A DNA stretch of 64,000 nucleotides. It comes from Roseomonas aeriglobus (GTDB lineage Bacteria; Pseudomonadota; Alphaproteobacteria; Sphingomonadales; Sphingomonadaceae). A model generated the notes under the pieces. It made no database searches and was not told the origin of the DNA. It saw only the letters and a program-made list of their open reading frames with translations. The position numbers and the translations under genes are program-made. Positions 7,499 through 61,915 of this stretch are shown here, piece after piece. The stretch's first letter is position 1; the number at the start of each line of letters is the position of its first letter. The DNA is taken from positions 496,001 to 560,000 of the forward strand of contig JAFHKN010000002.1 of the NCBI GenBank assembly GCA_016937575.1, given 5' to 3'.

Positions 7499-7648
7499 CG
7501 CTGCCTCTGGTAGCACAACGGCCTTATCAGTCGATTGACGCCGTCACGCCTTGAAAAAGCGGAAACTGCCTGCTAGTGGGCCGCCACTTGCCGGCGCGGA
7601 CGCTGTTCGCGGCGCCGCTTATCTATCGATCCGGAGCTTTTGAGTTTT

Positions 7649-7855: not shown

Positions 7856-7965
7856 GCCGTCGGCCGGGCGTGCGAGGCGGACGGCGAGTCCGCTTCGCAG
7901 CTCTCAACTTTCTCAACTTTCGCGGTCTGGCCGAGCGCCGGCCGCCTAGCAGCACTGGGCCCGCC

Positions 7966-45821: not shown

Positions 45822-46478
45822 TTATTCGCGGGTCGGCAGCCCCATCATCCACGGCTTGGGCCTGCCGGTGGGTTTGGGCGTGCCGTCGAGGCGCTGTGCG
45901 CTTTTGATCAGGATCGGCTTGAACAGCATCTGGCCCTTCATTGCGCCTTCGCCGCCGCCGGTCGGCAGTGCCAGGATACGCTTCACAACCTCCATGCCCG
46001 CTACGACCCGGCCGAAGGCGGGATAGCCTTCATATGTGCCGTTCGCATCCATGTTCGGGGCGGCGCCAACGGTGATGAAGAAATTGCCGCCCGCCGATCC
46101 GCCATAGGCCGGGCGGGCCATGCTGATCGTGGCGTCGATATGCCTGATGCCGGTCTGCGTGGTCTTTTCGAGCGGAAAGGTCGGCAGCATCCGCCGCGCG
46201 TCCTGGCGAATGCCCCCCTGGATGAACCCGGTCTTCGGATCGATCTTCTTGCGGGCCGATCGGTAGAAAACCGTCCCGTCGAACCGCCCGTCGTCGACAT
46301 AGGCCAGGAAATTCGCCGTCGTCCGCGGCGCGCGGCGGGCATCCAGCGCCAGCACGATCGGCCCGGCCGAGGTGTTCAGTCTCACGCGGACATAGCCCGG
46401 CGTCGGCCGGTTGGTCGGCTCGGCGGCGCTCGCCGGCAGCGTGAGGGTGAGGGCAAGGAGCGAAAGGAGGATACGCAT
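45822..46478 (-). CDS. Secreted cyclophilin-type peptidyl-prolyl cis-trans isomerase
   Basis: A 218-aa protein with signal peptide (MRILLSLLALTLTLPASAAE) and a cyclophilin domain: DGRFDGTVFYRSARK, TGFIQGGIRQDA, ISMARPAYGGSAGGNFFITVGAAP, and FGRVVAGMEVVKRIL. It should assist folding in the periplasm. Convergent with comM (3 bp between stops). It is the last chromosomal protein gene before the tRNA-Leu and the accessory element. Confidence 0.92.
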   Translation of the reverse strand: MRILLSLLALTLTLPASAAEPTNRPTPGYVRVRLNTSAGPIVLALDARRAPRTTANFLAYVDDGRFDGTVFYRSARKKIDPKTGFIQGGIRQDARRMLPTFPLEKTTQTGIRHIDATISMARPAYGGSAGGNFFITVGAAPNMDANGTYEGYPAFGRVVAGMEVVKRILALPTGGGEGAMKGQMLFKPILIKSAQRLDGTPKPTGRPKPWMMGLPTRE

Positions 46479-46568
46479 GGTCACGACACGGATATGGGAA
46501 GGGGGCCGCCGTCCGGCTATCCCGCCGCACGCATCGGCACAAGCGCTTGCCCCCGCCGCCGGCATCGT

Positions 46569-48275
46569 CTAGCGGATGCGCCTTCGCTGCCCCTGTGGCG
46601 AAATTGGTAGACGCGACCGACTCAAAATCGGTTGCCGCAAGGCATGCTGGTTCGAGTCCGGCCAGGGGCACCACTCCCGAGCAGAAGAGGGCACCGCTGG
46701 TGCGATCTGCTCGGGGTCACCGCCAACCGCCAACTCGAGGGGCTTGATCGGTCCCGTGATGGTTATGCGGTTGGGCGCGACCACGACCTTGGCGATAAAC
46801 CGGCGGGCGTAGCCCTGCCGCAGCGTGTGATCCTCGGATCGCAGCTTGCCGAGGATGACTTCGCCGAGCCGCTCGATGGCTTCCGGCGTCACCCGACGGT
46901 CGGCTGCGGACAGCTGACGCTCGACCAGCAAGATCTCCTGCTCGAGATCGGCGCGGCGCGTCCGCTGTGCGGCGAGGCGTGCGGTGAAGTCTGCGTCGCG
47001 TGGCGACACGATTCCCTGTTCGATGAAATCGAACATGTTCTGTACCGCACCCTCGACCCGCGTCCGCTCGGTGCGAAGCGCCTTGAGGTGCGCCTGTCGT
47101 TCGCGAACGGCGGCGGAACTGTCGTCGAGTAGGTTGGCGAGGAGCGTCTGGAGCCGCTCGGGCCGCAGCAGCCGCTCGGCCATCGCGTCGATGACGATGG
47201 TCTCCAGCTTCTCGTCGCGGATGCTGGTCCCCTCGCACGCCGTCTCGCCGCGCCGCAGGCGACGCGAGCAACGGTAGTAGCGATAGCGTCCACCCTTGCC
47301 GGTCGCGATTGCCAGCGCATGGCCGCATTCGGGATGACCGCACTTGGCGATGCCGGCCAACATGGTCGGGCCGGAGACGATCCGCGCCGGGGTGATATGA
47401 CTGGCGTTGCGGGCGATACCCGCCTGGACCTCGAGCCATTCGGCTTCGGGGATGATGACCGGGGCGGGAACTTCCTGCCATTCCTCCTCGGGCCGCTTGA
47501 TGCCGTTGCGTGTATCGTTGACGCCGTAGAGATGCTTGCCACGGTAGGTAGAGCGAGTGAGCACGTCACGGACGTTGGACACGTGCCACTTGCGGCCTCG
47601 CAGGGTCGTGCCGCTCGAGTTCAGGTGGCAGACAATCTTCTTGTAGCCCATTGGTCCCTGGCCGATCCCGACCCGCTTCATGCGAAAGATCTGCTGGACC
47701 TGCAGCGCCTCGGACGGTTCGATCACTAGCCGCTTCTTGGCCTTGGGCCCGCGCATCTCGGCGATCTCGGTCGTATAGCCAAACGGCGGGATCGCGCCGT
47801 TCCAGAAGCCCGCTTCGGCGTTGCGCTTCATCGTATCGCGCGTGAACTTGGCGGTCTGACGCGACTGGTATTCGTCAAAGTTGGACAGCACCGAGCGCAC
47901 CAGGTCGCCCTCGGCGTCCTGGCCGACCTCCTGAGTGATCGCGACGATGCGCACCCCGGCGCGCTTCAGCTTTCGACGGTAATGCTCGAGCAGATAGTGA
48001 TCCCGAAAAAGGCGCGAGAAGCTGTAGACGCCAATCTCGGAGACCCCGCTGCCGGGCCGCAGCGCGTGTTCGAACAGTGCCTGCAGGCCAGGCCGGTTGT
48101 CGGTGGTGCCGGAGAGCCCGCCATCGCGGTAGATATCGACGAGCTCGACGCCGCGTTGCCTGTAGTGTGCGGTGAGCCGTTCCTCCTGATTGTCGAGGCT
48201 GATGCCGCCCTCGGCCTGCCGCTGGGTAGACACCCGAACATAGCCGAGCGCGCGTTCAATCCTTGTCTTTGCCAT
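46569..48275 (-). CDS. Large serine recombinase (site-specific integrase)
   Basis: A 568-aa protein. The resolvase catalytic domain has GYVRVSTQRQ (nucleophile Ser16) and YSFSRLFRD (Ser85, Arg88, Arg91). A recombinase domain (about 175-280), a zinc ribbon (CGHPECGH...YYRCSRR) and a coiled coil (about 370-450) follow. It should integrate and excise the element. The last 30 or so residues are translated antisense to tRNA-Leu, and the stop lies beyond it in chromosomal DNA, so the C-terminus depends on where the element sits. Confidence 0.92.
   Translation of the reverse strand: MAKTRIERALGYVRVSTQRQAEGGISLDNQEERLTAHYRQRGVELVDIYRDGGLSGTTDNRPGLQALFEHALRPGSGVSEIGVYSFSRLFRDHYLLEHYRRKLKRAGVRIVAITQEVGQDAEGDLVRSVLSNFDEYQSRQTAKFTRDTMKRNAEAGFWNGAIPPFGYTTEIAEMRGPKAKKRLVIEPSEALQVQQIFRMKRVGIGQGPMGYKKIVCHLNSSGTTLRGRKWHVSNVRDVLTRSTYRGKHLYGVNDTRNGIKRPEEEWQEVPAPVIIPEAEWLEVQAGIARNASHITPARIVSGPTMLAGIAKCGHPECGHALAIATGKGGRYRYYRCSRRLRRGETACEGTSIRDEKLETIVIDAMAERLLRPERLQTLLANLLDDSSAAVRERQAHLKALRTERTRVEGAVQNMFDFIEQGIVSPRDADFTARLAAQRTRRADLEQEILLVERQLSAADRRVTPEAIERLGEVILGKLRSEDHTLRQGYARRFIAKVVVAPNRITITGPIKPLELAVGGDPEQIAPAVPSSAREWCPWPDSNQHALRQPILSRSRLPISPQGQRRRIR
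46589..46673 (+). tRNA. tRNA-Leu (anticodon CAA)
   Basis: An 85-nt class II tRNA with encoded CCA. Acceptor arms GCCCCTG (46589-46595) and CAGGGGC (46663-46669) pair fully. The anticodon arm ACCGA-CTCAAAA-TCGGT gives CAA (reads UUG), followed by a variable arm and the T arm with GGTTCGAGTCC. The serine recombinase gene runs antisense across it, so this is the probable insertion site of the element to the right. Confidence 0.97.
46676..46715. promoter_or_regulatory. Long hairpin directly after tRNA-Leu
   Basis: Arms CCCGAGCAGA (46676-46685) and TCTGCTCGGG (46706-46715) are perfect complements, with a nested GCACC-GCT-GGTGC hairpin inside. There is no T run. It lies 3 bp after the CCA of the tRNA and inside the recombinase reading frame, so it may be part of an attachment/recombinase site or a tRNA 3' processing signal. 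Confidence 0.45.
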
Positions 48276-48938: not shown

Positions 48939-49229
48939 CTACTCGCTTCTGTTCGCTTGCGCGTCCTGCTCGGCGAGCGCCGCTTCGCGATCATCGCACA
49001 ACGTTATCGCCTTCTGCTTAGAGAGCCACGACACATAACGCCGCGCAGAGCAGTGGCAGGCGAGTTGCTCCTCGTCGTGATACCAGCTGCCTGTCGGGCA
49101 GGTCGCGCAGGCGAGGATCGGCGCGGGCCGCGCGCTTTCGGGCAACGCCAGCAGGGTCGGGCTGGTGATCGGCGCACGGCGCCGCTTCACCGAGCCGAAC
49201 GGAAACTTCATCGATTCGAATTCGGGCAT
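48939..49229 (-). CDS. Small hypothetical protein, possibly metal-binding
   Basis: A 96-aa protein preceded by a strong AAAGGAGG. It contains CATC and, 20 residues later, CHC with nearby His residues (WYHDEEQLACHCS), a spacing that could bind zinc, though this is only suggested. No family recognised. It follows the ParB-like gene by 38 bp on the same strand and is probably in one unit with it. Confidence 0.6.
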   Translation of the reverse strand: MPEFESMKFPFGSVKRRRAPITSPTLLALPESARPAPILACATCPTGSWYHDEEQLACHCSARRYVSWLSKQKAITLCDDREAALAEQDAQANRSE

Positions 49230-49267: not shown

Positions 49268-50155
49268 TCAGGCGTCGCCGAACCAGTCCTTGAGGAGATC
49301 GACGAAGGCGGCGTTGATCATTTTGACGTGATCGAGGCGGTAGGACGGATGCTGCTCGGTCATCGACTTGACCCGGATCGTGAACGCCCCGCGGTGGTCG
49401 GGGGTGATCGTCGCGATGACCTTGCCGTGACGGTTGCGGACCTCGACCGGCTTGATCTCATCCTTGCCGGCGGCCGCGGCGGTCAGCTTTCTGAACAACG
49501 GCGCAACGCCGAGAGTCTGGCCCGCCATCAGCGCGGCGCAGGCGAGTACGCGCTCGCGTTGCTCCTCATCCTCAAGCAACGGCGCGAGTTGGGCCCACTG
49601 GGTCATCGAGATGGCGCGCCGGTCGGCGACGAGACCGAGGATGGCGACAGGCGCCTTCTGCAAGGCGAGCCCGCGGTTGATCGCGGACTTGTCCTCGCCG
49701 ACCGCCTCGGCCAGTCGCGTCTCGTTGGTCACCAGCTTGCCGTCGAGCATACGCGCCCAGGACGCCGATCTGTCCCACAGGCTGACCTCAAGCGCACCGC
49801 GATCCTCGCGATTGGCGATCTTGAGCGCCTGCTCCGCGGTTAGCGCGCCCTTCTCGTACACCCGTACGCGCAGCGGACTGCCCAGGATGTTGCATGCGTG
49901 TCGGCGTCGAGAGCCTGCGAGGATTTCGACGAGGCCGTTCGGTCCGCGCTCGCCGATCGCGTCATGCGCCTGACCGACCGCTTTCAGTTCGGCAACGAGC
50001 GGCGCGACGCTCTCGTCCGTGATGAGGTAATCGAATCGCGGGTTCTTGAGCGACACCATCGTCTGGTCGTGGCGCAGGAACTCGACGACGTAGTTGGTTT
50101 TCTGATTGCGCCTGGGCGGCGTCGAGCCGTCCAGCGGGAGTTCGTTCGTGCTCAT
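49268..50155 (-). CDS. ParB/RepB-like DNA-binding protein
   Basis: A 295-aa protein. The ParB N-terminal domain shows LVEILAGSRRRHACNIL (the GxRRxxA box) and KIANREDRGALEVSLWDRSASWARML. A KorB/ParB-type helix-turn-helix follows (LAEAVGEDKSAINRGLALQKAPVAI). GAGGGATCG precedes the ATG. On this element it could serve stabilisation of an excised form or transcriptional control. No ParA is seen in the window, which argues against a normal partition pair. Confidence 0.82.
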   Translation of the reverse strand: MSTNELPLDGSTPPRRNQKTNYVVEFLRHDQTMVSLKNPRFDYLITDESVAPLVAELKAVGQAHDAIGERGPNGLVEILAGSRRRHACNILGSPLRVRVYEKGALTAEQALKIANREDRGALEVSLWDRSASWARMLDGKLVTNETRLAEAVGEDKSAINRGLALQKAPVAILGLVADRRAISMTQWAQLAPLLEDEEQRERVLACAALMAGQTLGVAPLFRKLTAAAAGKDEIKPVEVRNRHGKVIATITPDHRGAFTIRVKSMTEQHPSYRLDHVKMINAAFVDLLKDWFGDA

Positions 50156-50660: not shown

Positions 50661-51167
50661 CTACGAGCCGGGACGGGCGCAATTCGTGCCGCGCAGGCGC
50701 TGTTTCAGTGCATTGATGACTATCATGTGCCTGCGCTGCTCTGGGCTTGAGCGTTTGCAACTACGACCCGTCCAATAATCCTGCGGAACATCGTAATCAT
50801 AGCAGAATGGCTTCCCACCGGGCGGCGGGTTGAACCAGCCATAGCCCATGCAAGTGTCGTCATCCGCAATGCACTCGCAGTCGAAATACAGCCTTGGAAA
50901 CATCTCGACGAAGCGTTCGAATGCGTGGGCCGGAAAGTTCGTGTGGCTGTCGAAGGCGAACGAGTACATGCCGTGCTCGTGCGGCCCGAGTTCTCTGAAG
51001 TTCCAGATCGGATCGGCACTGACGTCGTTGAGATCGAAAGTCAGCGTACTGCCCGCGTGGTCGCCCTCGGTTGCGGGGATGACGAAGCGACGTTTGAACC
51101 GGTCGATGTCGGCTTGCGGTCCGTAGATGTCCACGCTGTTCCACATCTCATCGCACATGATGAACAT
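50661..51167 (-). CDS. Hypothetical protein, last gene of the 805-aa unit
   Basis: A 168-aa acidic protein: WNSVDIYGPQADIDRFKRRFV, DLNDVSADPIWNFRELGPHEHGMYSF, FVEMFPRLYFDCECIADDDTCMGYGWF. The alternating pattern vaguely recalls plasmid DUF1281/YubB ferredoxin-like proteins, but I cannot confirm it. GGAGG precedes the ATG at 51167. It starts 86 bp after the 805-aa gene on the same strand. Confidence 0.6.
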   Translation of the reverse strand: MFIMCDEMWNSVDIYGPQADIDRFKRRFVIPATEGDHAGSTLTFDLNDVSADPIWNFRELGPHEHGMYSFAFDSHTNFPAHAFERFVEMFPRLYFDCECIADDDTCMGYGWFNPPPGGKPFCYDYDVPQDYWTGRSCKRSSPEQRRHMIVINALKQRLRGTNCARPGS

Positions 51168-51253
51168 GATAATTGCCTCCAAGGATAGATTTGCGGGTGC
51201 CTCGACCGGCCAGGCGCCGCAAAGGTGTTTCACGGTGCCACGAGCGCGCCGGG

Positions 51254-53671
51254 TCACCGAACATGGCCAAGGTCTGCGGTCACCGGCGACACGCCGGTGA
51301 ACAGGTGGCATGCAACGACATCCTCGCGGCCCGTTACGATCGGTCCGGCGAACGGCGCCGATGACCAGCGACGCACACCGTCCAGCCAGCTTTTGAGCTT
51401 AGCTGCGCGACTTGTGTCATCATCAGCCGATGCTTGTCCCGGCATACCGCGTGCAATCCAGGCGAGCCGGTCGCGGTCGATCAGCGGCGCGAACCAGAGG
51501 ATCGGCACGAACAGGTCCGATACCGGCGCCAACTGGGCGAGATTAGCGTACCCGCGTAGGATATCCTCGAGCAGATCGTCCTGCGGGGCGGGCTGCGGCT
51601 TTCTGGGATCGACCGGTCGCCAGCGTCGCATGTCATCGACAAGGTCGCGGAGGATTTGCCCGCGGTTGCCCGCATTGGTCGCCTCCTTACCGGCGGCTCT
51701 GGCGCCGCCTTGACCTTCATCATGCTCCTCGTAAGCCCCGTCGGTACGGCTCGCGCGTTCCCGCATTCTCGCGGCACGAGCATATTCGCCGTCATCGGAG
51801 GGCGGTGTCGCAATGTCTGTTATCGCATTGCGGACAGAACCGGCCGAACCCACACCGCCATCGAGCGTGAGCAGCATCGAGCGCACCAGTTCCTGGTGGA
51901 TGCGATGCTTGCTGAATGCATCCCACGGCCCGTCGGCGTCGGCTCGGCGATCGCCGTTCTTGCGCGGCTTGCGCCCAAAATGGATCATCGCGCGGTGGAT
52001 TACGAAATCGCCACGCTGAAAACTGGTCGGCCAGATCGCACGGACCATCGCGCCGAGGTGCCGAACGAGGGTCAGGCCCATATGCCGGATGAGATCGTCG
52101 TCGCGCGCCGTCACCTCGAACGCTGGCTGCGCCTGCTGGATGACGACGACCGCGTCGCGCGTGCGCTTCAGCTTGAACGTGGCCACGTCGTTGTAGCCGA
52201 GAAATCCGCCGCGCGTCGCCTCCAGCGACAGCCCGCCACCGAAATGCTGGCCGTAGAGCGCCGCCTTGACCATGACGTGGCTGGTGACCTGGGCGGCGAG
52301 TGCGGCGCCGGCGGCGTAGTTGCGCCCTGCGGCGAGGACTATGTGACGGGGGTTGGCGTAAACGCCGCTCACCGCTCGCACGGTCATGCGCCTCACCGTT
52401 CCTGGCCCTTGGTCGGTGTCAACCAGACGACGCTTCATGTCATTGCCGATGTCGACGCCGCGCGAGGACTCGTAAAGCGAGGCCAGTGCGCCGAGCGCAC
52501 CGCCGGCGCAGCCCGGAAACGCGCCGTGCGGCGCCGCCAGCCACGGGAACAAGCGATATATGCGGTCAAGTTGGCGCGACATGGCCAGCGCGAAGATCAG
52601 GTCGCAGCGGATCCGCGCCAGCCCGCTCATACGCCGTTCGCGATCCGGCATCGCCAGCCGAAGCAGGGCGCGGCGGATGTGCGGGCGCCAACCGGTACGT
52701 TCGAGGCGGGCGCCGAGATTGGCGCAGGCCAGGCATTCGAGCTCACGCGATATCTGTTCGAGCTTCGACGCTGCACCACCGGCGTGATCGCGCGAAGCTT
52801 TGCCTTCCAGCATATGGCTAAGCCGCTGCCAGCGCTTACGGGGCGCATCGCTGGTAACCGAGAACACGCCTACCGCATCGAGGATTGTACGTGCCCACAC
52901 GATCGCGCGGGAAAGCTTGTGCCGCATGACGTCCGGATCGCCGGCAGCTTCGGCGGCGCGCAGATGCCGAAGATAGTGGTGAAGCGCAGTAAGCAGAGCC
53001 TCGAGCGCCGCCTCGCACTCGCTTCGCACCTGTGTCTCGCTTTTCGCCGGTGTCGCCAATCGATCAACGATCGCGACCACGTCGATGAGCGCTCGGCCGA
53101 CTGCCACGGCACCCGATGCAGTTACGAGGGGAACACCGGCGACAGAGCCGACATTCCATTCTACTGCCATCCACATTTTGCGCAGCGCGAAGGACCCTTG
53201 AAGATGCGCGGTGCTCAGCCGCGCATCATCTCCATTAACTCGAAGCCGGTCGAGCCAGGTCGCGACCGAGGCATCGGTCCAGGCTGCGCGCGCGAACAGC
53301 GCGCCGGGCGCCGACCACAGGCCGGAGCGGGCGCGTAATTCGCGCAAGATGTCGTCGCCGGATGCAGGCAGTGCGCGAAGGGTGACGCCGAGGCTCGCTG
53401 CCGCCGGGACCGCGCCAGGTTTCAACCACGGTGCAATGCACGATTGCCGTCCTCCGACGAACCCACCGCCAGGACGCCGATCGGGATCATCGATATAGTC
53501 GACATGGGGCAACAACGCGAACGGCACCCAGGCGCCGGGCGGCAGAACCGCGAACCGGCTGGGTGCGGCGCGACCCGTTGCGGTGATCAGCGCGGGTCGG
53601 ACGGCGGCGCCGTTGGCGACCAGTCCGGCGATAACCATGCGATTGTCGGTATTGACGGCGGCGGGAGTCAT
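51254..53671 (-). CDS. Large protein of unknown function (805 aa)
   Basis: An 805-aa protein with no recognised domain. It has an N-terminal part with LPPGAWVPFALLPHVDYIDDP, a mostly helical middle (ALEALLTALHHYLRHLRAAEAAGDPDVM, ISRELECLACANLGARLERTGW), a glycine-rich segment (YGQHFGGGLSLEATRGGFLGYNDV), a charged linker about 660-690 (RERASRTDGAYEEHDEGQGGARAAGKEA) and a C-terminus DLFVPILWFAPLIDRDRLAW. No membrane run or ATPase motif. Its ATG overlaps the 97-aa gene stop by 4 bp. It is the biggest unknown in the element. Confidence 0.7.
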   Translation of the reverse strand: MTPAAVNTDNRMVIAGLVANGAAVRPALITATGRAAPSRFAVLPPGAWVPFALLPHVDYIDDPDRRPGGGFVGGRQSCIAPWLKPGAVPAAASLGVTLRALPASGDDILRELRARSGLWSAPGALFARAAWTDASVATWLDRLRVNGDDARLSTAHLQGSFALRKMWMAVEWNVGSVAGVPLVTASGAVAVGRALIDVVAIVDRLATPAKSETQVRSECEAALEALLTALHHYLRHLRAAEAAGDPDVMRHKLSRAIVWARTILDAVGVFSVTSDAPRKRWQRLSHMLEGKASRDHAGGAASKLEQISRELECLACANLGARLERTGWRPHIRRALLRLAMPDRERRMSGLARIRCDLIFALAMSRQLDRIYRLFPWLAAPHGAFPGCAGGALGALASLYESSRGVDIGNDMKRRLVDTDQGPGTVRRMTVRAVSGVYANPRHIVLAAGRNYAAGAALAAQVTSHVMVKAALYGQHFGGGLSLEATRGGFLGYNDVATFKLKRTRDAVVVIQQAQPAFEVTARDDDLIRHMGLTLVRHLGAMVRAIWPTSFQRGDFVIHRAMIHFGRKPRKNGDRRADADGPWDAFSKHRIHQELVRSMLLTLDGGVGSAGSVRNAITDIATPPSDDGEYARAARMRERASRTDGAYEEHDEGQGGARAAGKEATNAGNRGQILRDLVDDMRRWRPVDPRKPQPAPQDDLLEDILRGYANLAQLAPVSDLFVPILWFAPLIDRDRLAWIARGMPGQASADDDTSRAAKLKSWLDGVRRWSSAPFAGPIVTGREDVVACHLFTGVSPVTADLGHVR

Positions 53672-53961
53672 GCCTCGCCCTCCGCATGGTATCGTTTCAC
53701 GATCTCCCAACCGGCGAGGATGTTGGCGCGGCGGATGCATGCCTGCTCGAACGAGGCGATCATGTACTCGAGCTCCTCGACACGATTGATGTGGCGCACG
53801 ATCTCGTCTTCGCGCCCGTCCAGTGCGCTCACCGTACCGCTCTCGAACCGGGCATAGATCGGCTTGAGCTTGGCGACGGTTGCCGTGAGCTCAGCGCGAT
53901 AGGGCGCGATGTCGGTGACGATCGTCTCGCAACCGTTCTCGGTGATCGTGATCCGGGTCAT
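53668..53961 (-). CDS. Small helical hypothetical protein
   Basis: A 97-aa protein: MTRITITENGCETIVTDIAPYRAEL then a long helix-prone stretch LTATVAKLKPIYARFESGTVSALDGREDEIVRHINRVEELEYMIASFEQ that looks like a coiled coil. It overlaps both neighbours by 4 bp (ATGA at each end), so it is translationally coupled with the 289-aa and 805-aa genes and may act with them. Confidence 0.65.
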   Translation of the reverse strand: MTRITITENGCETIVTDIAPYRAELTATVAKLKPIYARFESGTVSALDGREDEIVRHINRVEELEYMIASFEQACIRRANILAGWEIVKRYHAEGEA

Positions 53962-54827
53962 CGCTGATCCTCCCGGAAGCGTGGGTTGGCTCCATTGTCG
54001 TCGAGCCAGGTGGCGGAGTGGCCGCGGGTGCGCTCGGCGGGCATCGCAACCCCCTTGAGCTCGGCGATCGTGCGCGCATGATGACCTTGCCGCGAGAGCG
54101 GCGGCTTCCAACGCCAGCGCCGATCGCCGTGGGCGCGCTGGTGCGCGGCGAAGCTTGCGCACTTCGCCCAATAGCGCTCGGCGGCATCGGCCTCGCTTGC
54201 CGCCTCGCCGGTCGCGGCGAGCTTGGCGCCGCCGGCGGCGATGACTGCAGGCATCAGATCGCCGAACGTGTCGGTGAAAGCGGTCGCGACCGTGGCGAAC
54301 CGACCGCGCAGCTCGCAGGGCGTCAGCGTGTAGAGGCCGCGGTGCGCGGCGGCGTCGGCAACCATGAGCCCGTGTAGTTTGGCGGGTTGGCCGAGCCCGA
54401 GTTTCGGACGCTTGATCCAAAACGGATCGATGCCGCCGCCCTTGAGCAGGCCGTGCTCGTCCAGCCACGCGAGCCCCGCGATCTCGAGCAACGGGTCGCT
54501 TTCGCAGACCCGACGGAGCGCTGCGATCAGGCAATCGTCGTCGCCGTCATCGCGCGCATCGCCGAGCCGGGCGATGGCGTCGCCGTAGGGCAGACGGTAG
54601 AAGCCGGCGTGCGCGAGAATATGGGCAGCCCCCATATCGCGCAGCGCTGCCAACCCGCCGTGTCTGTAGGCGATGGTGTTTGGATGCTGGCCGAGGGCCG
54701 CTTGCTCCGCGTCTAGCAGGACAATCCGCGCAGGCGCATCGTTGCTATCCGCTGTAGCACGCTCGATCTCGTAGTTGATCGCCGAGATCAGCGCTTCGAA
54801 ATCATCAGGAATGTCGTCGTTCGTCAT
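53958..54827 (-). CDS. Hypothetical protein, first gene of the 805-aa unit
   Basis: A 289-aa protein: an acidic N-terminus (MTNDDIPDDFEALISAINYE), a middle with ALGQHPNTIAYRHGGLAALRDMGAAHILAHAGFYRLPYGDAIARLG, then DPFWIKRPKLGLGQPAKLHGLMVADAAAHRGLYTLTPCEL and a basic, Trp/His-rich C-terminus (RWRWKPPLSRQGHHART). No family recognised. GGAGG lies 5 bases before the ATG, and the island motif lies 26 bp upstream. Confidence 0.65.
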   Translation of the reverse strand: MTNDDIPDDFEALISAINYEIERATADSNDAPARIVLLDAEQAALGQHPNTIAYRHGGLAALRDMGAAHILAHAGFYRLPYGDAIARLGDARDDGDDDCLIAALRRVCESDPLLEIAGLAWLDEHGLLKGGGIDPFWIKRPKLGLGQPAKLHGLMVADAAAHRGLYTLTPCELRGRFATVATAFTDTFGDLMPAVIAAGGAKLAATGEAASEADAAERYWAKCASFAAHQRAHGDRRWRWKPPLSRQGHHARTIAELKGVAMPAERTRGHSATWLDDNGANPRFREDQR

Positions 54828-54971: not shown

Positions 54972-55808
54972 ATGAGCGGAAGCAGCGAGTTCCCGCGCGC
55001 AATCGCCCAGGCGATGCTCGCAATGGTCGATCCCGCAGACGTCGCTTTGTCGGGCGATCGTGACCGGCTCGCCATCACCATCGCCGGCGCGACGATCACG
55101 TTCGGCGACGCCCAACCGCATGCATTCGAGCGACTGGCCTCGGCAATCGAAGCGCAGATTGCGTATCAGCGCGCTGGTGCGATGGTCGCTGCGGCGGGTG
55201 AAACCGGCACGCCGCTGTGGCTGGTCGCCGGATCCGATATGCTCGGCAAGTGGCTCGCGTGGTCGCGGGTCGATAAGCCGCTGGCCAAGGGTCTGAGCCT
55301 CACCGGCCGCGCTGACGCAGCGCCGGTCGTGGGCGATCTTGCGCGGCGCTCGCGGCGCGAGCTCGGCCAGATGTCGGCGAAGATCCGGGTGAGGAGCGGC
55401 CAGGCGGTCGCCGAGCGGATCGAGCTGTCGCACCACGTTCCCGCGATCGCCATACTGGGCGACCGTGCACTGATCCGCATCGCGCGCCACCATTTGCCTG
55501 AAATGATATTGTCCGCGCTGCTCAAAAACCCGACCAGTAACGATCGTTGGCGCGCGTCCGAGATCGTCGACCACCCGTTCTTCACGACGCATGACTTCAT
55601 GGTCGCTCGTGTCGACAACGACCGTGATGAGGTGGTGGTCGAACTGGAAACGGCATGGGCGCCGCTGGCGCCGATTCCCGAGGCTGCCTGGGCGGCTGTT
55701 CCGCGCGGCGCCGACCCCGCATTCCCATGGCGCGCGACCGGTCGCGAGGTGGTGGACCTCTACGGGCTTGCCGGTCGCGGCGAGCGAGCGTTGCAGGAGA
55801 GGCTCTGA
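54972..55808 (+). CDS. Hypothetical protein, divergent from the 805-aa unit
   Basis: A 278-aa protein: an N-terminal region DVALSGDRDRLAITIAGATITFGDAQPHAFERLASAIEAQIAYQRAGA, then GTPLWLVAGSDMLGKWLAWSRVDKPLAKG, a central basic segment, and a C-terminus rich in Trp/Pro. No motif, signal peptide or membrane segment. It is convergent with the E1-like gene (24 bp between stops). Confidence 0.62.
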   Translation: MSGSSEFPRAIAQAMLAMVDPADVALSGDRDRLAITIAGATITFGDAQPHAFERLASAIEAQIAYQRAGAMVAAAGETGTPLWLVAGSDMLGKWLAWSRVDKPLAKGLSLTGRADAAPVVGDLARRSRRELGQMSAKIRVRSGQAVAERIELSHHVPAIAILGDRALIRIARHHLPEMILSALLKNPTSNDRWRASEIVDHPFFTTHDFMVARVDNDRDEVVVELETAWAPLAPIPEAAWAAVPRGADPAFPWRATGREVVDLYGLAGRGERALQERL

Positions 55809-55832
55809 CCACACGGCGAGATCATCGCGATG

Positions 55833-56603
55833 CTACGGGCGATCCGCGTTGACGATGGTGTTCCCGTCTACCGCGTAGATGCAGGTGTATTCGCCCTCGG
55901 TGTCGGCGTAGAAGCCGCGCAGCTGCTTGTACTGGATCACCGCGAGCGTGGCGGCGAGGCGGTTGAGGTCGCCGACTTGGATGTTGCTGCGGTACAGTTC
56001 GTCGTCATCGCCACCGGCGGTCGGCACGCGCTGGGCGATGTGCTGGCGCATCTCCGGCGTACTGGTCGTTACGCGAACCTGTCCCATCAGCTTGTCACCC
56101 GCGAGGCGCAGGCCAAGACCTGCGTCGATAAACGGCAGATCGCGGGCTTCCAGTTCGGGGATGATGAACGCCCTTGCCTCGACACTGTCGACGCAGACGA
56201 ACACGAAATCGACGTCATTGAGCAGATGAACATTGTTGGGACCGAGGTGGGCGGCATGCGCAACGATACCGCGGTGCATCCGCCCGTAGACCTGCGCGTA
56301 ATGCTCGACCTTGGGCAGCCCGGCGGCGATGTCGTCGAACGACATCGCGCCGGGCGCCCGCCACGCAGTGTGCTGCTCGACGATGTCGCCATCGATCAGC
56401 ACGATCCGCTCGCACGGTGTCTTGCTGACGAGGTCAAGCGTCTCCGAGCCGGTGCCGCCAAGCCCGATGATCGCGATGGTGCCGCCGGCGAGCCGAGCGG
56501 ACACCGCCGCGATCCCCGCCCGGGATGCGGCGGTGTCCTCGTAGACGAACGGACTCGCCGCGACCGGCGATGCCCCGTCCGCCGGGGCTGGTTCAGCTGG
56601 CAT
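55833..56603 (-). CDS. E1-like ThiF-family adenylyltransferase of a bacterial ubiquitin-like system
   Basis: A 256-aa protein with the E1/ThiF adenylation fold: PFVYEDTAASRAGIAAVSARL, IIGLGGTGSE (ATP motif, residues 47-52), LIDGDIVEQHTAWRAPG (Asp71/73, Arg82), FVFVCVDS (Cys137), and NIQVGDLNRLAATLAVIQYKQLRGFY. From memory this matches the ThiF module that in other bacteria follows a DUF6791-type N-terminal domain, which is absent here. It overlaps the Ubl gene by 11 bp and presumably activates it. No second catalytic-cysteine domain is visible. Confidence 0.85.
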   Translation of the reverse strand: MPAEPAPADGASPVAASPFVYEDTAASRAGIAAVSARLAGGTIAIIGLGGTGSETLDLVSKTPCERIVLIDGDIVEQHTAWRAPGAMSFDDIAAGLPKVEHYAQVYGRMHRGIVAHAAHLGPNNVHLLNDVDFVFVCVDSVEARAFIIPELEARDLPFIDAGLGLRLAGDKLMGQVRVTTSTPEMRQHIAQRVPTAGGDDDELYRSNIQVGDLNRLAATLAVIQYKQLRGFYADTEGEYTCIYAVDGNTIVNADRP

Positions 56604-56976
56604 AGGTCGCGTCGGCGTTGACGATGAGACCATCAGCGATCTCGATGACGTCGCCCGGGGTCATGATGCCGCTCGGCCGCAGGCCCACGCCGCCGCGGAA
56701 CGACACGGTGGCGGCGCTCGGCGCCGCAAGCGCCTGGTGGGGGAAGGCGAGCCGCAGAAGCTGCGCGAACGTCGCGGTGCGCCCGCGCAACTCATGCCAC
56801 TGCCCGTTGATGCGGATCGACGTGCGGCCGGCCGGCGTCGCCTGCGCCGTGCACGAGCGCTCAGCCTCGCCAACCAGATAGAGGTGCGGGCGCGTACGCA
56901 CCGATGGAATCGGGTCGTGCGTGGGCATGGTGGCCGTCCAGCCGCGCGCAACGGGCTGTGTAGCAAGCAGGGTCAT
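56593..56976 (-). CDS. Ubiquitin-like beta-grasp protein (multiubiquitin-domain type)
   Basis: A 127-aa protein. After a variable N-terminus, residues 50-127 fit a bacterial Ubl: TSIRINGQWHELRGRTATFAQLLRLAFP, ATVSFRGGVGLRPSGIMTPGD and VIEIADGLIVNADATYAS, the beta-grasp pattern seen in multiubiquitin-type proteins. There is a single Ubl unit and the C-terminus ends in Ala-Ser, not Gly-Gly. AGGAG precedes the ATG. It sits between the Lon-like AAA and the E1-like gene, the natural Ubl-E1 pairing. The fold call is from motif memory. Confidence 0.72.
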   Translation of the reverse strand: MTLLATQPVARGWTATMPTHDPIPSVRTRPHLYLVGEAERSCTAQATPAGRTSIRINGQWHELRGRTATFAQLLRLAFPHQALAAPSAATVSFRGGVGLRPSGIMTPGDVIEIADGLIVNADATYAS

Positions 56977-56990
56977 CTGTCTTCTCCTTG

Positions 56991-57872
56991 TCAGTAGGGA
57001 TCGTCGAAATCGGGGTCGGTCTCTTCGCCGCGCGCGGCCCAGCGAACCGCGTCGGTCATCTCGGCGTAGAGTTGCCGTGTGGTGGAGTGATAACCGCTGA
57101 GGCGCCGCGCGACGTGCGGCCAGTCGAGCGTCGGGTCGGCCTCATCGAGGTCCAGGTCATGGATCACCTCGAGCATGACCGACAGCACGGCGGTATTCTC
57201 CTTGCCGCGCGGTAGCTTCTCGAACACGACATGCGCGGCGAGCGCGCGCAGCGACGGCGGAACGCGCGTCAGGTCATCGCACTGGACGATCCATGTCACT
57301 TCGGCGAAATTGACATAGGTCTGCAGGCAATCCTCGCTCCACGCGCGCCCGGTTGCGGGATCGATCATCGCGACCAGCCCGGCGGCTACGTCGTCACTGA
57401 CCTTATCGATGCCGATCACCGTCGCGATCGGGTTGGCGCAACGCCGGGCGGCCATCGCGACCGTGACCGGCGACGCCCACAGCGCCTCGGTTGTTCGGCC
57501 GGACGAGGCGATATTCGCGGCAATGACCGGATCCGTCAGATTTATGATGACGTGTGGCACGCCCGCGACAAGCGCCAGCCAGCGCGCGGCGTGCGTTCGC
57601 CCGGCACCCACGGGACCGGTCGCCAGCACCGGATTGCCGCGGAACCACGGCCGACCGGTCGCGATGAGCGTCTCGCAGTTGGCCCCAACCCACCGCAAGA
57701 ACGCGGACTGATGCTCGTGCATGAATTCGAATGCGATTCCATCGGGACCGAGCCGGTCGCCGCCGTTCAGCGCGAAGGGTTCGCTCAGGCCCAGCGGCGC
57801 TGGGCAGTCGTCGAAGGCTTGACCGACGACCATCGCCGGACGCGCCGACATAAAGGGGGTCAGATCATTCAT
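56991..57872 (-). CDS. Degenerate Lon-like AAA protein (no protease domain)
   Basis: A 293-aa protein with a LonA-type AAA layout: VLATGPVGAGRTHAARWLA (residues 82-100) where Lon has GPPGVGKT; NPIATVIGIDKVSDDVAAGLVAMIDPATGRAWSEDCLQTYVNFAEVTWIVQCDDLTRVPPSLRALA tracks the Lon Walker B, pore and sensor region. The Walker A Lys is Arg, and Walker B Asp-Glu is Ile-Gly, so hydrolysis is probably lost. Its start overlaps the upstream stop by 1 bp. It may act as a scaffold for the Ubl/E1 pair. Confidence 0.75.
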   Translation of the reverse strand: MNDLTPFMSARPAMVVGQAFDDCPAPLGLSEPFALNGGDRLGPDGIAFEFMHEHQSAFLRWVGANCETLIATGRPWFRGNPVLATGPVGAGRTHAARWLALVAGVPHVIINLTDPVIAANIASSGRTTEALWASPVTVAMAARRCANPIATVIGIDKVSDDVAAGLVAMIDPATGRAWSEDCLQTYVNFAEVTWIVQCDDLTRVPPSLRALAAHVVFEKLPRGKENTAVLSVMLEVIHDLDLDEADPTLDWPHVARRLSGYHSTTRQLYAEMTDAVRWAARGEETDPDFDDPY

Positions 57873-58534
57873 CAGTCACCTCGCCACATCCGCAGCGGCC
57901 GCATGCCACCGGCGCCGCGCCCTTCCTTTTTGATCCGCCGTTCGGTCTCGAACATCTCGTCGATGAGCATCCGGGTCAGCTTCTCCGAACCGTGCTTGGC
58001 GGCATGGTCGAGAAAGGCAGCGAACCGCGGCACTTGCCAGCGCAGCCAGTCGCACAGTCGGTCGCGTTCGCTGGCACGATCGTACTGCACCGACCATTCG
58101 GCATCGTGGCCGCTTCTGCGCTTAAGTTCGAGCCTGTAACCGCGCTTAGTGTCAGGCGCGTACAGGTTGATGACTTTGAAATCGCGCTGTCGTTGCGCCT
58201 CGGCCGCCGCTTGCTCGCGGCGCACCTCGCGCGCGTTTTTGACAAGTTTGTCGCAGGCGGCGGTGATTGCCGCCGGCCCGAAGATCATCGTCACACGCCC
58301 GTAGAACACGAGATCGAACGCGCCGGCGCTTACGCGTTCGAGCACAGCGTCGCGGTCGGCGAGATCGCCAAAGTGCCGCGTCCACAAGATGCGCGTTCCA
58401 CCATGGTTCGCGACAAGGCGCATCATGTGCGGGTCGGTCGCGTGGGTCTCCACCGAAAACATGCCAGCCGCTGCGTGCACGATCGAAGCGGCAGTCGACA
58501 TGGCACTTGGTTCGAAGGGCGTAGGCAGCAGCAT
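57872..58534 (-). CDS. Hypothetical protein heading the Ubl-E1 operon
   Basis: A 220-aa protein (244 aa if started at 58606). N-terminal half: IVHAAAGMFSVETHATDPHMMRLVANHGGTRILWTRHFGDLADRDAVLERV and FDLVFYGRVTMIFGPAAITAACDKL; then a charged helix (AREVRREQAAAEAQRQRDFKVINLY) and a basic C-terminus. No E2 or JAB motif is present. The start at 58534 is chosen because a near-consensus promoter ends 7 bp upstream, which would exclude the longer form. Confidence 0.62.
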   Translation of the reverse strand: MLLPTPFEPSAMSTAASIVHAAAGMFSVETHATDPHMMRLVANHGGTRILWTRHFGDLADRDAVLERVSAGAFDLVFYGRVTMIFGPAAITAACDKLVKNAREVRREQAAAEAQRQRDFKVINLYAPDTKRGYRLELKRRSGHDAEWSVQYDRASERDRLCDWLRWQVPRFAAFLDHAAKHGSEKLTRMLIDEMFETERRIKKEGRGAGGMRPLRMWRGD

Positions 58535-58570
58535 GAACTGACCTATAGGTCCGTGTACGGAATATGTCAA
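58535..58570 (-). promoter_or_regulatory. Sigma70-type promoter of the Ubl-E1 operon
   Basis: Minus strand: TTGACA (58570-58565), a 17-bp spacer, TATAGG (58547-58542), then 7 bp to the ATG at 58534. The transcription start would fall within a base or so of the start codon, so the mRNA would be leaderless or nearly so. It lies in the spacer divergent from the 206-aa gene. Confidence 0.7.
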
Positions 58571-58615
58571 ATTGAGAGCTTGCCTCGCTGTCGTCGATCG
58601 AGTCATCGCTGTGCC

Positions 58616-59236
58616 GTGGCCGACCCGAACCCATCCGCCTTGAGCTTGTCGTACGGCGACGCGATCACCGTGCTGATGGACGCTTGCGGGTTGCCGGCGA
58701 TCGCGCGAACCGCATTCGATGCGCGTGTCCGGCAGCTTCAGCGGCTTGGTGTGCCAAGGCGTGACGATCAGGCGTTGGGGCGGCTGCGCTACGGGATCGC
58801 TGAACTGGCTGCGCTCGCCACTGCTACGAAGCTGATGGATGCATTCATGGTACCGGCGCTGGCGGCGCGCTACGTGGTGGAGCGCTGGCAGGAATTGGCG
58901 CCATGCATGTTGGCGGGCGCTCGGGATGCGCTGCCTGCAAGCTATCTGGCACGGCGGTCGGTGGCGGCGGAAAGTTTTGCGTTCTTCGGGTCGAACGCCT
59001 TAGCAATGATGGGCAAGCGCCACCGCCATGACGAACGCTATGTCGAACCGCTCGGCACAGTTCGGATCGTTGATGAAAAGCGCGCTGCGGCGACTGCAGC
59101 AGCGTTAGGTGGCGCGGGGCTGATCCTCGACAGCTCGACCTACATGCCGGTCATCGTCCGTGAATGGAAAGATCGGTTGTCGGTGACAGATATAGAAATG
59201 GGGGTAGAGCTTGATCGGCTCAGATTTGCGCAGTGA
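58616..59236 (+). CDS. Hypothetical protein divergent from the Ubl-E1 operon
   Basis: A 206-aa protein from a GTG: SYGDAITVLMDACGLPAIARTAFDARVRQLQRLGVPRRDDQALGRLRYGIAELAALATATKLMDAFMVPALAARYV, then FFGSNALAMMGKRHRHDERYVEPLGTVRIVDEKRAAATAAALGGAGLILDSSTYMPVIVREW. The N-terminal part is helical, possibly a MerR-like or helix-turn-helix fold, but no sure match. It could be a regulator of the facing operon; that is position-based only. Confidence 0.58.
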   Translation: MADPNPSALSLSYGDAITVLMDACGLPAIARTAFDARVRQLQRLGVPRRDDQALGRLRYGIAELAALATATKLMDAFMVPALAARYVVERWQELAPCMLAGARDALPASYLARRSVAAESFAFFGSNALAMMGKRHRHDERYVEPLGTVRIVDEKRAAATAAALGGAGLILDSSTYMPVIVREWKDRLSVTDIEMGVELDRLRFAQ

Positions 59237-59662: not shown

Positions 59663-61915
59663 ATGTTTCTCAAGAAGGTAACAGGCATCCGGAACGTTGG
59701 CCGCTTCAAGGCGGCACGTGTCGCCGGTGGCATGTACGAGCGGTTCACGCTGATCTACGGCGGCAACGGCCGCGGAAAATCGACTTTGTGCGCGATCCTG
59801 CGCTCTCTCCAGACAAACGACCCAACCCCCGTCATGCGACGCCGGACGTTTCAGGCGACCAGCGATCCCGAGATCGGGCTGCTGCTCGACAGCGGGCAGG
59901 TGCGCTTCGCCAACGGCGCTTGGTCCGCCGCCAACCCCGACGTGCACATCTTCGACCATCAGTTCGTCGCCAAGAACGTCCACGGCGGTGACCAGATCGA
60001 TGTCGAACACCGACGCAACTTCTACCGGATCGTGGTCGGCCCTGCGGGTGTGGCGCTCGCCGAGGAGGTTGACCGTCTCGATCAGCTGGCGACCGCAAAG
60101 CAAGGCGAGCTCGCGACGGCGAAAAAGGTGCTGGAGCAGCACCTACCGAGCGGTGTCCGGCTTGATCCCTTCCTCAAGATCGCTGCCGACCCAGCCAACG
60201 CCGGCAAGATCGCGGATGCGGAACGGCGGCTGAGAGCGGTCAACGACGCCGGCGCGATCGCATCCCGCAAGCTGCTCAGCCTTCCGCCGCTTCCGGTGCT
60301 GCCCGAGGGCTTCGTTGACCTCCTCGGCAAGACTGCCGAAGGCGTGGCGGCCGACGCTGCGGCGCAGGTCCACGCGCAACTCGCGCGGCACCATTTCGAC
60401 GAGCATGGTGAGGCCTGGCTCAGCCAAGGCCTTGACCATGCGGCCGACGGCACGTGCCCGTTTTGCGAGGCGCCACTTGCTGGCAACGGCCTGATCGATG
60501 CCTATCGGGGGTTCTTCAGCAAAGCCTACGCCGACCATAGGAAGGCGGTTGCCGACATGAGCCGCGCCCTCAACCACGCGCTGTCCGGGACGGCGGCGTT
60601 GCGGGCCGAACAGGGCTTCACGACGGCCGCTGCCGACGCGGAATTCTGGCTCGACTATAGCGATCACGGTTACGCGCCGCCCGCCGCAGCGGAACGGATC
60701 GTCGCCGAGGTGGAAGCCTTGTTCGTTGCCGCAAAGGCGCTGTTGGCAGAGAAGAACAATGCGCTGCTGGAGACAGTGGAAACTTCCACCGCCTTCATCA
60801 CCGCGGCCGCCAATTGGTCGGCGACGTCTGCCGAGCTCGCGAGCGCCTCTGCACGCATCGACGACGCCAACGGACTGATTCAGGCGGTGAAGAATGGCAG
60901 CGCGGCCGGTGACAAGGCCGACATCGAAGCAGAGCTGGCGGGGGCACGTGCCGTCGAGAAGCGGCATTCAGAGCCGGTCGTGACGCTCGCCGCGGAGTAT
61001 CTCCAGCTCACCGCCGACAAGCAGACGCTGGTCGACGCGAAGGACGACAAGAAGAAAGCGCTGGACGCCTACGACGCCTCGATATTTGGCGCCTACGAAG
61101 CCGACATCAATTCATATCTGACGAGCTTCGGTGCTGGGTTCCGGCTTGCCGACTGTAAGAAGAGCTATGTCGGCAAGGCGCCGCAGTCCATCTTCTGCCT
61201 GCGGTTCGACAACAGCGACATTGACGTGACGAAGGCGAGCGCCGACGAGCCTGGGTTCGACACGACGATGAGCGCTGGCGACAAGAACACCTTCGCCTTC
61301 GCGTTCTTCCTGGCGCAGCTGAAGCGCGACGCGGACCTCACCCGCAAGCTCGTCATCTTCGACGATCCCTTCACCAGCCTCGACGATTTTCGCCGCGCGA
61401 TGACGGCGAAGGAGATCGTCCGTAGCGGCGGCCGGGCCGCGCAGACGCTGGTGCTGAGTCACGACAAGTTCTTCCTGGACACGGTGCATGGTCTGATCCG
61501 CGACGCGCAATGCGTAACCATGCAGATTTCGAGCACGGTGACGGGATCGTCGATTGAGCCCTGGGACCTCGAGCGGGAGGTCAAGGAAGGATATCTGCTG
61601 GACCATATGCGGCTGCAGGAGTTTGCCGACGGCCGCTCCGGCGAGGCTCGCGAGATGCGAACGGTCATGCGGCCCTTGCTCGAACAGTATATCCGCTACC
61701 GCTTCCCCAACCAGATCCTCGAGGGCAAATGGCTGGGCGATATGCTCGCGATCATCCGCGCCGATCCGCAGCATCCGATGACGCCGCACTATGCCGAGCT
61801 CGACGACATAAACGCCTACACGGCGCCGTTCCATCACGATCCAAACGCGCCCTACGTCGAGGACGAGGTTCGCAGTTATGTCACCAGGACGGTGGCGATC
61901 GTCGGTGGCTGCTGA
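59663..61915 (+). CDS. AAA_13-type ATPase with zinc hook (RloC/PrrC-like family)
   Basis: A 750-aa SMC-like ATPase: YGGNGRGKSTL (Walker A, 32-42), coiled-coil regions broken by GTCPFCEAPL (zinc-hook-type CxxC, Cys265/268), MSAGDKNTFAFAFFLAQL (ABC signature, about 535-552), LVIFDDPFTSLDD (Walker B, about 563) and LVLSHDKFF. The C-terminus (RPLLEQYIRYRFPNQ, INAYTAPFHHDPNAP) is the conserved tail of AAA_13 proteins used in phage-defence ATPases. No anticodon-nuclease triad is obvious. Likely a defence or DNA-surveillance protein; partner, if any, is not evident. Confidence 0.83.
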   Translation: MFLKKVTGIRNVGRFKAARVAGGMYERFTLIYGGNGRGKSTLCAILRSLQTNDPTPVMRRRTFQATSDPEIGLLLDSGQVRFANGAWSAANPDVHIFDHQFVAKNVHGGDQIDVEHRRNFYRIVVGPAGVALAEEVDRLDQLATAKQGELATAKKVLEQHLPSGVRLDPFLKIAADPANAGKIADAERRLRAVNDAGAIASRKLLSLPPLPVLPEGFVDLLGKTAEGVAADAAAQVHAQLARHHFDEHGEAWLSQGLDHAADGTCPFCEAPLAGNGLIDAYRGFFSKAYADHRKAVADMSRALNHALSGTAALRAEQGFTTAAADAEFWLDYSDHGYAPPAAAERIVAEVEALFVAAKALLAEKNNALLETVETSTAFITAAANWSATSAELASASARIDDANGLIQAVKNGSAAGDKADIEAELAGARAVEKRHSEPVVTLAAEYLQLTADKQTLVDAKDDKKKALDAYDASIFGAYEADINSYLTSFGAGFRLADCKKSYVGKAPQSIFCLRFDNSDIDVTKASADEPGFDTTMSAGDKNTFAFAFFLAQLKRDADLTRKLVIFDDPFTSLDDFRRAMTAKEIVRSGGRAAQTLVLSHDKFFLDTVHGLIRDAQCVTMQISSTVTGSSIEPWDLEREVKEGYLLDHMRLQEFADGRSGEAREMRTVMRPLLEQYIRYRFPNQILEGKWLGDMLAIIRADPQHPMTPHYAELDDINAYTAPFHHDPNAPYVEDEVRSYVTRTVAIVGGC

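Follow-up and report, generated by a model that had tools for sequence, protein, structure and literature searches.

A six-gene ubiquitin-like/E1 cassette found beside serine recombinases in Sphingomonas-like bacteria

Bil and related bacterial ubiquitin-like (Ubl) systems are defense systems. As set out in one published account, Bil operons place a BilB E2 and a BilC JAB protein beside the Ubl and the E1 (PMC11354881). What, then, would be the role of an operon that encodes a Ubl and an E1 with neither partner nearby? Such an operon is present in the window, which is the whole 64,000-nucleotide stretch of Roseomonas aeriglobus DNA analyzed herein. The original prediction was that it may represent a reduced Ubl-activation system carried on a mobile element, in which a Lon-like protein or a 220-aa protein supplies the missing steps, for purposes of either defense or control of the element. 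No paper describing this operon was among the matches listed in our literature searches, which did not cover subscription journals and preprints.

The Operon Is Part of a Six-Gene Cassette

Four genes are arranged leftward on the reverse strand. The operon opens with u220 (57872..58534, frame start to 58606), which codes for a 220-aa protein. This gene is followed by those for a 293-aa Lon-type AAA domain protein (56991..57872), predicted to be a pseudo-ATPase and lacking a protease domain, and for a 127-aa one-domain Ubl (56593..56976) with an N-terminal YLVGE motif and a C-terminal T-x-x-S sequence. The last gene encodes a 256-aa ThiF/E1 adenylation domain (55833..56603, frame start to 56633) of the PRK06153 family that lacks the N-terminal DUF6791. 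The u220 and AAA genes overlap by 1 base (TGATG), a 14-base gap precedes the Ubl gene, and the Ubl and E1 genes overlap. The reading frames and domain matches bear out these four leftward genes and their junctions as originally described, along with their identities as a protein of no known family, a Lon-type AAA protein, a one-domain Multi_ubiq Ubl, and a ThiF/E1 enzyme.

However, the proposal that these genes form a four-gene unit was not borne out, as the cassette comprises six genes. One additional gene, called reg (58616..59236, forward strand), is divergent and faces u220. It is considered a regulator by position only, its start codon is uncertain, and its frame yields no Pfam match. The other, called conv278 (54972..55808, forward strand), encodes a convergent 278-aa protein of no assigned family that accompanies this cassette type.

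BLAST searches with the window proteins located 10 distinct copies of the six-gene cassette in nine genomes of Sphingomonas-like bacteria. All nine complete copies carry the full set, including reg, and the tenth (L039) terminates at a contig end. A search for the same gene order elsewhere, as had been suggested for this operon, revealed the four operon genes to be collinear in nine of the 10 copies and in 11 sister loci from the same bacterial family, nine from the genus sample and two from two other genera. These sister operons share with the cassette the order u220-AAA-Ubl-E1, a degenerate AAA protein, and the C-terminal tail of u220, but they carry DUF6791 at the E1. In two of them the E1 frame is broken, such that L089 retains the DUF6791 part only and L091 has the two parts in different frames. 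In the stretches read, the sister operons lack conv278, reg, and a recombinase, and DUF6527 is present in one of the 11. In contrast, conv278 is found with all 10 cassette copies, on either side of the operon, and with none of the 11 sister loci. The local models used to determine gene content drew in part on the 10 cassette copies, which therefore match by construction.

Several weak candidates were set aside as family hits. Three of these are u220 matches (G039, G058) that cover only part of the domain, with none of the AAA, Ubl, and E1 genes present, and two are conv278 matches in G849 and G895. A tblastn search of the stretch retrieved for G849 (L043) detected no cassette gene. The G849 genome bears a DUF6791-type locus elsewhere (L092).

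The Cassette Accompanies a Mobile Element

The predicted placement on a mobile element is supported, the cassette is conserved as a reduced system, and recombinases lie with all 10 copies. In the window, a large serine recombinase with Resolvase, Recombinase, and zinc-ribbon domains (46569..48275, reverse strand) has a frame whose 3′ end overlies a tRNA-Leu gene (46589-46673). A ParB/RepB-like protein (49268..50152, reverse strand) matches TIGR00180 parB_part with an E value of 7.3e-12, a match that falls short of the model cut-off. Between the ParB gene and conv278 reside the reverse-strand genes g50664, g828, g97, and g54 (50661..54827), to which no family is assigned. All four are syntenic in L007, L014, and L015, and g828 and g54 are additionally present in L038, L040, L041, and L101. 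In a search for the far end of the element, exact repeats of positions 46300-46900 elsewhere in 124 kb did not exceed 14 bases. A viral origin is not supported, as pattern-based scans of viral_contigs produced no relative.

Each of the 10 cassette stretches contains a serine recombinase, whereas none of the 11 sister stretches (13-17 kb) does. The ParB of the element occurs in seven of 151 genus genomes. All seven carry the cassette, compared to one of the 144 genomes that lack ParB (Fisher 2.6e-11, with kinship ignored and with G849 and G895 scored as cassette-less). The G795 genome carries the cassette without the element ParB. Because the sister loci are not tied to a recombinase or this ParB, the core machinery does not need the element.

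One competing explanation, which we consider rather improbable, is that the cassette is anti-phage cargo that tags phage proteins with Ubl in the manner of Bil. Related Ubl systems such as Bil are indeed defensive, the window E1 exhibits weak similarity to PADLOC E1-E2 models (best 4.3e-5), and the 11 sister loci lack a recombinase in the stretches read, as cargo operons might. In addition, among 10 chosen neighbors from seven loci that were scanned with PADLOC, the gene adjoining the window cassette is a PDC-S06 defense candidate, and L014 has a QatC gene at a distance of ∼4 kb from reg. However, in L036 and L042 this neighborhood instead holds genes for efflux-type transporters. The genes beyond the cassette vary from copy to copy whereas the cassette is constant, and it remains with the recombinase and ParB. 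Of the two purposes originally proposed, element control is the one that genomic position appears to favor over defense.

The Ubl and E1 Belong to Multiubiquitin-Type Families

The window Ubl matches Multi_ubiq (PF14452) with an E value of 7.4e-6, which passes the family cut-off, and all 10 cassette Ubls match at 0.1 or better (best 1.1e-6). A Ubl profile also matches the solved structure of a relative, the ZDHYS365 multi-ubiquitin protein (PDB 9cd2), at 5.1e-7. One-domain Ubls are already known among multiubiquitin-type systems (Iyer 2006, PMC1779556). All 10 cassette Ubls end in T-x-x-S rather than Gly-Gly, as do the five canonical proteins compared, and the sister Ubls of L088 and L089 terminate in C-x-x-S.

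The window E1 matches ThiF (PF00899) at 3.1e-14 and NCBIfam PRK06153 at 3.5e-83, although the latter match spans only profile positions 151-390 and its 279.9 bits compare to a full-length cut-off of 352. Its identity to each of the remaining nine cassette E1s is 60-78% (alignment A10). Among 23 E1 domains, the 10 cassette E1s, all without DUF6791, form a single clade with support of 100/100. These proteins retain the glycines of the GxGGxGS motif, and Arg, Lys, and Asp are each invariant at certain positions. The sole Cys found in all 10 sits before a conserved Asp, and the JAB-E1 from the genome of the window has it too. On this pattern, the cassette E1s share no candidate catalytic cysteine. 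A weak relative is Citrobacter BubCD (PDB 9eav, 9ea5; 3.2e-4), a 458-aa protein matched only at residues 189-314 and unnamed in the literature searched from 2015 on, excluding subscription journals and preprints.

Cysteine-independent E1-like enzymes of the MccB type function without an E2. This precedent, together with a Ubl ending that is not Gly-Gly, could suggest that the product is Ubl-AMP, or an AMP-capped or otherwise processed Ubl, generated as in MccB-like peptide maturation and with no protein conjugation. MccB structures do match the canonical E1 of L018, albeit very weakly (E 0.07). However, the window E1 has no MccB match at E 0.01 and is far nearer the multiubiquitin E1 family (3.5e-83), which makes this explanation quite unlikely.

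What the Cassette Lacks Compared to Its Relatives

Prok-JAB was not found near the nine cassette copies in the eight genomes searched (the L014 genome was excluded), such that BilC, like BilB, is unmatched. The scanned proteins yielded no Pfam match to E2 or Prok-E2, and the structure models were too poor to detect remote folds. Local models identified neither DUF6791 nor DUF6527 in any of the 10 cassette loci. The possibility that this is a Bil-type operon from which E2 or JAB genes were recently deleted looks poor and was rejected, because no copy has JAB (nine copies), DUF6791, or DUF6527 (10 copies) nearby.

The scanned proteins and these nine copies fit the predicted absence of E2 and JAB, but this is not a distinguishing trait, as the closest relatives also show neither in the stretches read. 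E2 and JAB annotations are absent from three plasmid multiubiquitin-type loci, for which the gene table is incomplete and L019 is truncated at the start of its record. Operons encoding multiubiquitin, DUF6791-ThiF, and DUF6527 share with the cassette the Ubl family, the E1 family, the Ubl-E1 overlap, and the T-x-x-S ending. In these comparisons we take “domain X” and “protein Y” of row 6e in Iyer et al. 2006 (PMC1779556) as DUF6791 and DUF6527, respectively. DUF6791 is detected in all 11 sister loci and in four canonical loci that lent sequence to the model, and an independent Pfam check confirmed it on one canonical E1. Neither domain is named in any paper found, subscription journals and preprints being outside the search. 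Unlike these operons, the cassette lacks DUF6791 and DUF6527, adds u220, AAA, and conv278, and lies beside serine recombinases. Its peculiarity is the lack of DUF6791 and DUF6527, rather than the lack of E2 and JAB.

PRTRC (ParB-related, ThiF-related cassette) is a gene set of mobile elements in which a ParB-like protein occurs together with a ThiF/E1 protein. The cassette differs from this set in its E1 and in the ParB of its element: the PRTRC_ThiF cut-off is 144.75 bits, of which the window E1 reaches 14.2, and the element ParB matches no PRTRC model. Nine window proteins scanned with NCBIfam, conv278 not among them, have no match to TIGR03735 or TIGR03737 (PRTRC A, B). A PRTRC A, B, and ThiF set is present on contig C5 of the same genome, where the ThiF scores 260.1 bits. 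It is very unlikely that the cassette is a decayed canonical system that borrows parts from another Ubl system in the same cell, because despite the presence of this PRTRC set and of a JAB-E1/DUF6527 operon (L002) in the same genome, and of DUF6527 in four and DUF6791 in two of eight cassette genomes, the other four have neither domain, and the 60-78% identity of the other nine cassette E1s to that of the window is not that of decaying genes. Even so, the L002 operon might act in trans.

The AAA Protein Is Probably a Scaffold

The AAA protein alone is weakly matched (Pfam AAA, E 0.16; NCBIfam Lon, E 0.038). A nine-member profile (A11), built without the intact AAA of L020, matches Lon structures at 3.9e-7, which places the protein in the family of the Lon protease AAA domain. 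In Lon chain 3m6a, which has 543 residues, this match extends to residue 318, and the AAA protein stops at 293 aa, without the protease domain. In all nine cassette copies examined, the Walker A Lys is replaced by Arg and the Walker B Asp-Glu pair is missing. The Walker B acidic pair is lost from all 20 cassette and sister AAAs read, but degeneration is uneven: sister proteins L088 and L089 retain the Walker A Lys, and L092 retains a Walker B Asp. On these features, an active Lon-like protease was rejected. The original Lon-like assignment holds with regard to family, whereas a proteolytic step is unlikely, and the protein is probably a pseudo-ATPase that serves as a scaffold.

The u220 protein has eight orthologs at 34-71% identity and matches no Pfam family. 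Its C-terminal tail (57875..57907, reverse strand), G-x-R-P-L-x-[MFL]-W-x-G, is conserved in 20 of 20 proteins (17 aligned, plus L089, L107, and L108), and across nine cassette copies compared its residues are constant while its codons vary. The AlphaFold check that had been proposed was run on u220 and gave a model too poor to use (pLDDT 55.6, three sequences), with which Foldseek retrieved nothing at E 0.001. The conv278 model was also poor (pLDDT 45.2), and PDB sequence searches with profiles of u220, conv278, and DUF6791 gave no useful match. The idea that conv278 is a split-off DUF6791 was rejected with regard to homology (hhalign probability 0.1 of a possible 100). Moreover, the presence of conv278 where DUF6791 is absent may reflect one event in one clade.

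A Possible Mechanism and Its Implications

The gene set, its conservation, the absence of DUF6791 and DUF6527, the degeneration of the AAA protein, the lack of a conserved E1 cysteine candidate, and the association with recombinases and ParB are all read from sequence. Given these features, we tentatively favor, while stopping short of calling it probable, the view that the cassette represents a branch of multiubiquitin/ThiF systems that needs neither E2 nor JAB and that, in Sphingomonas-like bacteria, has become a stable component of serine-recombinase elements, where Ubl activation serves the element. We infer that the E1 would adenylate the C-terminal carboxylate of the Ubl and, without a conserved catalytic cysteine, would pass Ubl-AMP directly to an acceptor with no thioester relay. 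The scaffold or substrate receptor could consist of the u220 protein and the degenerate AAA protein, the u220 tail acting as a docking peptide, and conv278 might fill the part played by DUF6791 in sister systems. The resulting modification, or the activated Ubl itself, would promote persistence or control of the element rather than serve as defense cargo for the host.

A bolder proposal, which we regard as unlikely, is that mobile elements independently of PRTRC recruited a Ubl and an E1 beside a ParB-like protein as core machinery. Such machinery would conduct E2-free and cysteine-free modification on the C-terminal serine and would control the partition or recombination proteins of the element. 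Its receptor would be a dead Lon-type AAA, and conv278 would stand in for DUF6791.

If the favored view is correct, the cassette would represent either a compact Ubl system that operates without adjacent E2, JAB, DUF6791, or DUF6527, or a route to their replacements. It would also connect ubiquitin-like chemistry in bacteria with a component that mobile elements retain, rather than with their changing cargo. Furthermore, the natural pairs of operons with and without DUF6791, and with and without conv278, open the role of DUF6791 to direct testing.

A Ubl operon within a recurrent six-gene cassette

Gene calling confirms the four minus-strand genes originally placed at 55833-58534. This operon encodes u220, an AAA protein of 293 aa, a ubiquitin-like protein (Ubl) of 127 aa that matches Multi_ubiq (7.4e-6), and a ThiF/E1 enzyme of 256 aa (frame 266) that matches ThiF (3.1e-14). 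Together with the divergent gene reg and the convergent gene conv278, it forms a cassette at 54972-59236. The Pfam scan matched no family for u220 or conv278. The window E1 covers the PRK06153 model at positions 151-390 only. In a canonical relative (L018), Pfam DUF6791 occupies E1 residues 10-157 and the next gene encodes DUF6527.

Querying genome_contigs with the E1 recovered two Sphingomonadales MAG loci with a kept neighborhood (L014 and L015) and one canonical locus (L016). A further copy of the block (L007), with 73-80% identity in long aligned DNA pieces, lies at 2.59 Mb in the window's own genome. Within the genus sample, conv278 was detected in 10 of 151 genomes, own genome included, two of these matches being weak. 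Stretches were read from eight of the other nine genomes (all but G895), and the cassette is present in seven and absent from that of G849. The G845 stretch (L036) shows the matches of L015, and the two are counted as one copy. The total is thus 10 distinct copies in nine genomes (the window, L007, L014, L015/L036, and L037-L042), nine with all six genes and one (L039) cut by a contig end. All 10 retain conv278, which follows E1 in seven copies and lies past reg in three. In a class-wide sample, conv278 was found in 1 of 385 genomes, our own. Among 397 genomes of the family, u220 occurs in six (with partial matches in G039 and G058) and the cassette neighbor g828 in two, one being a weak fragment.

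Features of the encoded proteins

In an alignment of 15 sequences, the E1 enzymes keep the nucleotide-binding glycines and the invariant Arg, Lys, and Asp positions, which we take to be the adenylation positions known from MoeB and ThiF. The sole Cys shared by all 10 E1s of the cassette type precedes the conserved Asp, and the same Cys is present in the JAB-E1 of another locus in this genome (L002). A C-terminal T-x-x-S is found in the Ubl of all 10 cassette, all five aligned canonical, and 9 of 11 sister copies. An N-terminal YLVGE..RS motif is common to the 10 cassette Ubls and absent from the canonical Ubl proteins aligned. The Ubl profile matches a multi-ubiquitin domain protein structure (PDB 9cd2, 5.1e-7), which supports a beta-grasp fold.

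A nine-member profile of the AAA protein matches Lon structures (E 3.9e-7), but the protein has no protease domain. The Walker A Lys is replaced by Arg in all nine cassette proteins, which also lack the Walker B pair. Among the 11 sister proteins, the Lys is kept in two (L088 and L089) and the Asp-Glu pair in none, with L092 retaining one Asp there, such that the pair is absent from all 20 proteins read. Judging from these motifs, the AAA protein is probably a pseudo-ATPase. A related protein from Methylorubrum extorquens (L020) has intact Walker motifs; this relative, encoded at 7209-8825 of the megaplasmid stretch, is a Lon-like AAA protein of 539 aa whose N-terminal half is uncharacterized.

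The u220 proteins end in a tail, G-x-R-P-L-x-[MFL]-W-x-G, in 20 of 20 read. Across nine cassette copies its codons vary while its residues are constant, indicating that selection on the tail acts at the protein level. AlphaFold models of u220 and conv278 are poor, and Foldseek with the poor u220 model gave no match at E 0.001. Part of the u220 C-terminal domain also occurs in other proteins of G039 and G058 (L109-L111), where the stretches read contain no AAA, Ubl, or E1 gene.

Sister loci and the history of DUF6791

A u220 profile matched 16 of the 151 genus genomes, seven already known and nine new, and missed G852, whose contig stops before u220. The nine new loci and two from other genera make up 11 sister loci, all with u220, AAA, Ubl, and DUF6791 at E1. 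The four-gene order, for which the original prediction had proposed a search, recurs in other genomes both in cassette copies and in sister loci. Only the DUF6791 part of E1 is visible in L089, and the two E1 parts of L091 lie in different frames. None of the 11 carries conv278 or reg, and DUF6527 adjoins one.

In a tree of 23 E1-domain sequences (10 from cassettes, eight from the 11 sister loci, and five canonical), the cassette E1s form one clade with 100/100 support; the tree has no fixed root, and long branches lead to two of the canonical rows. Because E1s outside the cassette clade bear DUF6791, a single loss of this domain from the cassette E1s would be the simplest history.

Partner genes and other Ubl loci

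As was claimed from the sequence, a JAB gene is missing beside the operon: Prok-JAB matches occur in all eight cassette genomes searched (every one but that of L014), with none near the cassette. Elsewhere in these eight genomes, DUF6791 is found in two and DUF6527 in four, and four have neither. In our genome, L002 (G000:C2:3293181-3296951) encodes a JAB-E1 with DUF6527; a Ubl and an E2-like gene there were named by eye only. On contig C5 (L005/L008), PRTRC A, B, and ThiF score above their cut-offs, so that a single genome holds Ubl-type E1s in three kinds of locus.

In Iyer et al. 2006 (PMC1779556), row 6e comprises a PolyUbl, an inactive E2/RWD, an E1 that bears either JAB or domain X, and a metal-binding Y, and includes one solo Ubl. 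We infer that DUF6791 is domain X and DUF6527 protein Y. On this reading, both are absent from the cassette. Our literature search found no paper naming DUF6527 or DUF6791.

Mobile-element setting and possible function

A large serine recombinase is present in the stretches of all 10 cassette copies (the L007 stretch holds its first 88 residues only, and that of L038 is split over two frames) and in none of the 11 sister stretches. These recombinases are of diverged kinds, with about 26% identity between those of the window and L037. The recombinase frame in the window (46572-48275) runs antisense over a tRNA-Leu(CAA) gene (46589-46673), and its last residues are therefore probably encoded by the integration site. 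The second copy (L007) has a tRNA-Thr close to its recombinase end.

A ParB-like protein (49268-50152) is encoded by seven of the 151 genus genomes, all of which carry the cassette, and by seven of the eight cassette genomes in that sample, the exception being G795 (Fisher 2.6e-11, a statistic that ignores kinship). In G816 its gene shares a contig with the cassette, at a distance of about 38 kb, and in the draft G852 the two are on different contigs. Adjoining ParB in element copies is a small Cys-rich protein (48942-49226) with CxxC- and CxC-like pairs, possibly metal-binding.

Ten chosen neighbors were scanned per library. In the window, an AAA_13 protein of the PADLOC candidate defense family PDC-S06 (59663-61912, 3.3e-61) adjoins reg, and in a Sphingomonas MAG the Qat defense gene qatC (L014 1824-3170, 1.1e-200) lies about 4 kb from the cassette. 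Among the neighbors of other copies, a P-type ATPase was matched along with an RND pump in L036, and a histidine kinase along with an RND pump in L042; the neighbors matched in L040 and L041 are recombinases. Because the neighbors change between copies, we tentatively prefer a function of the cassette for the element over one in defense.
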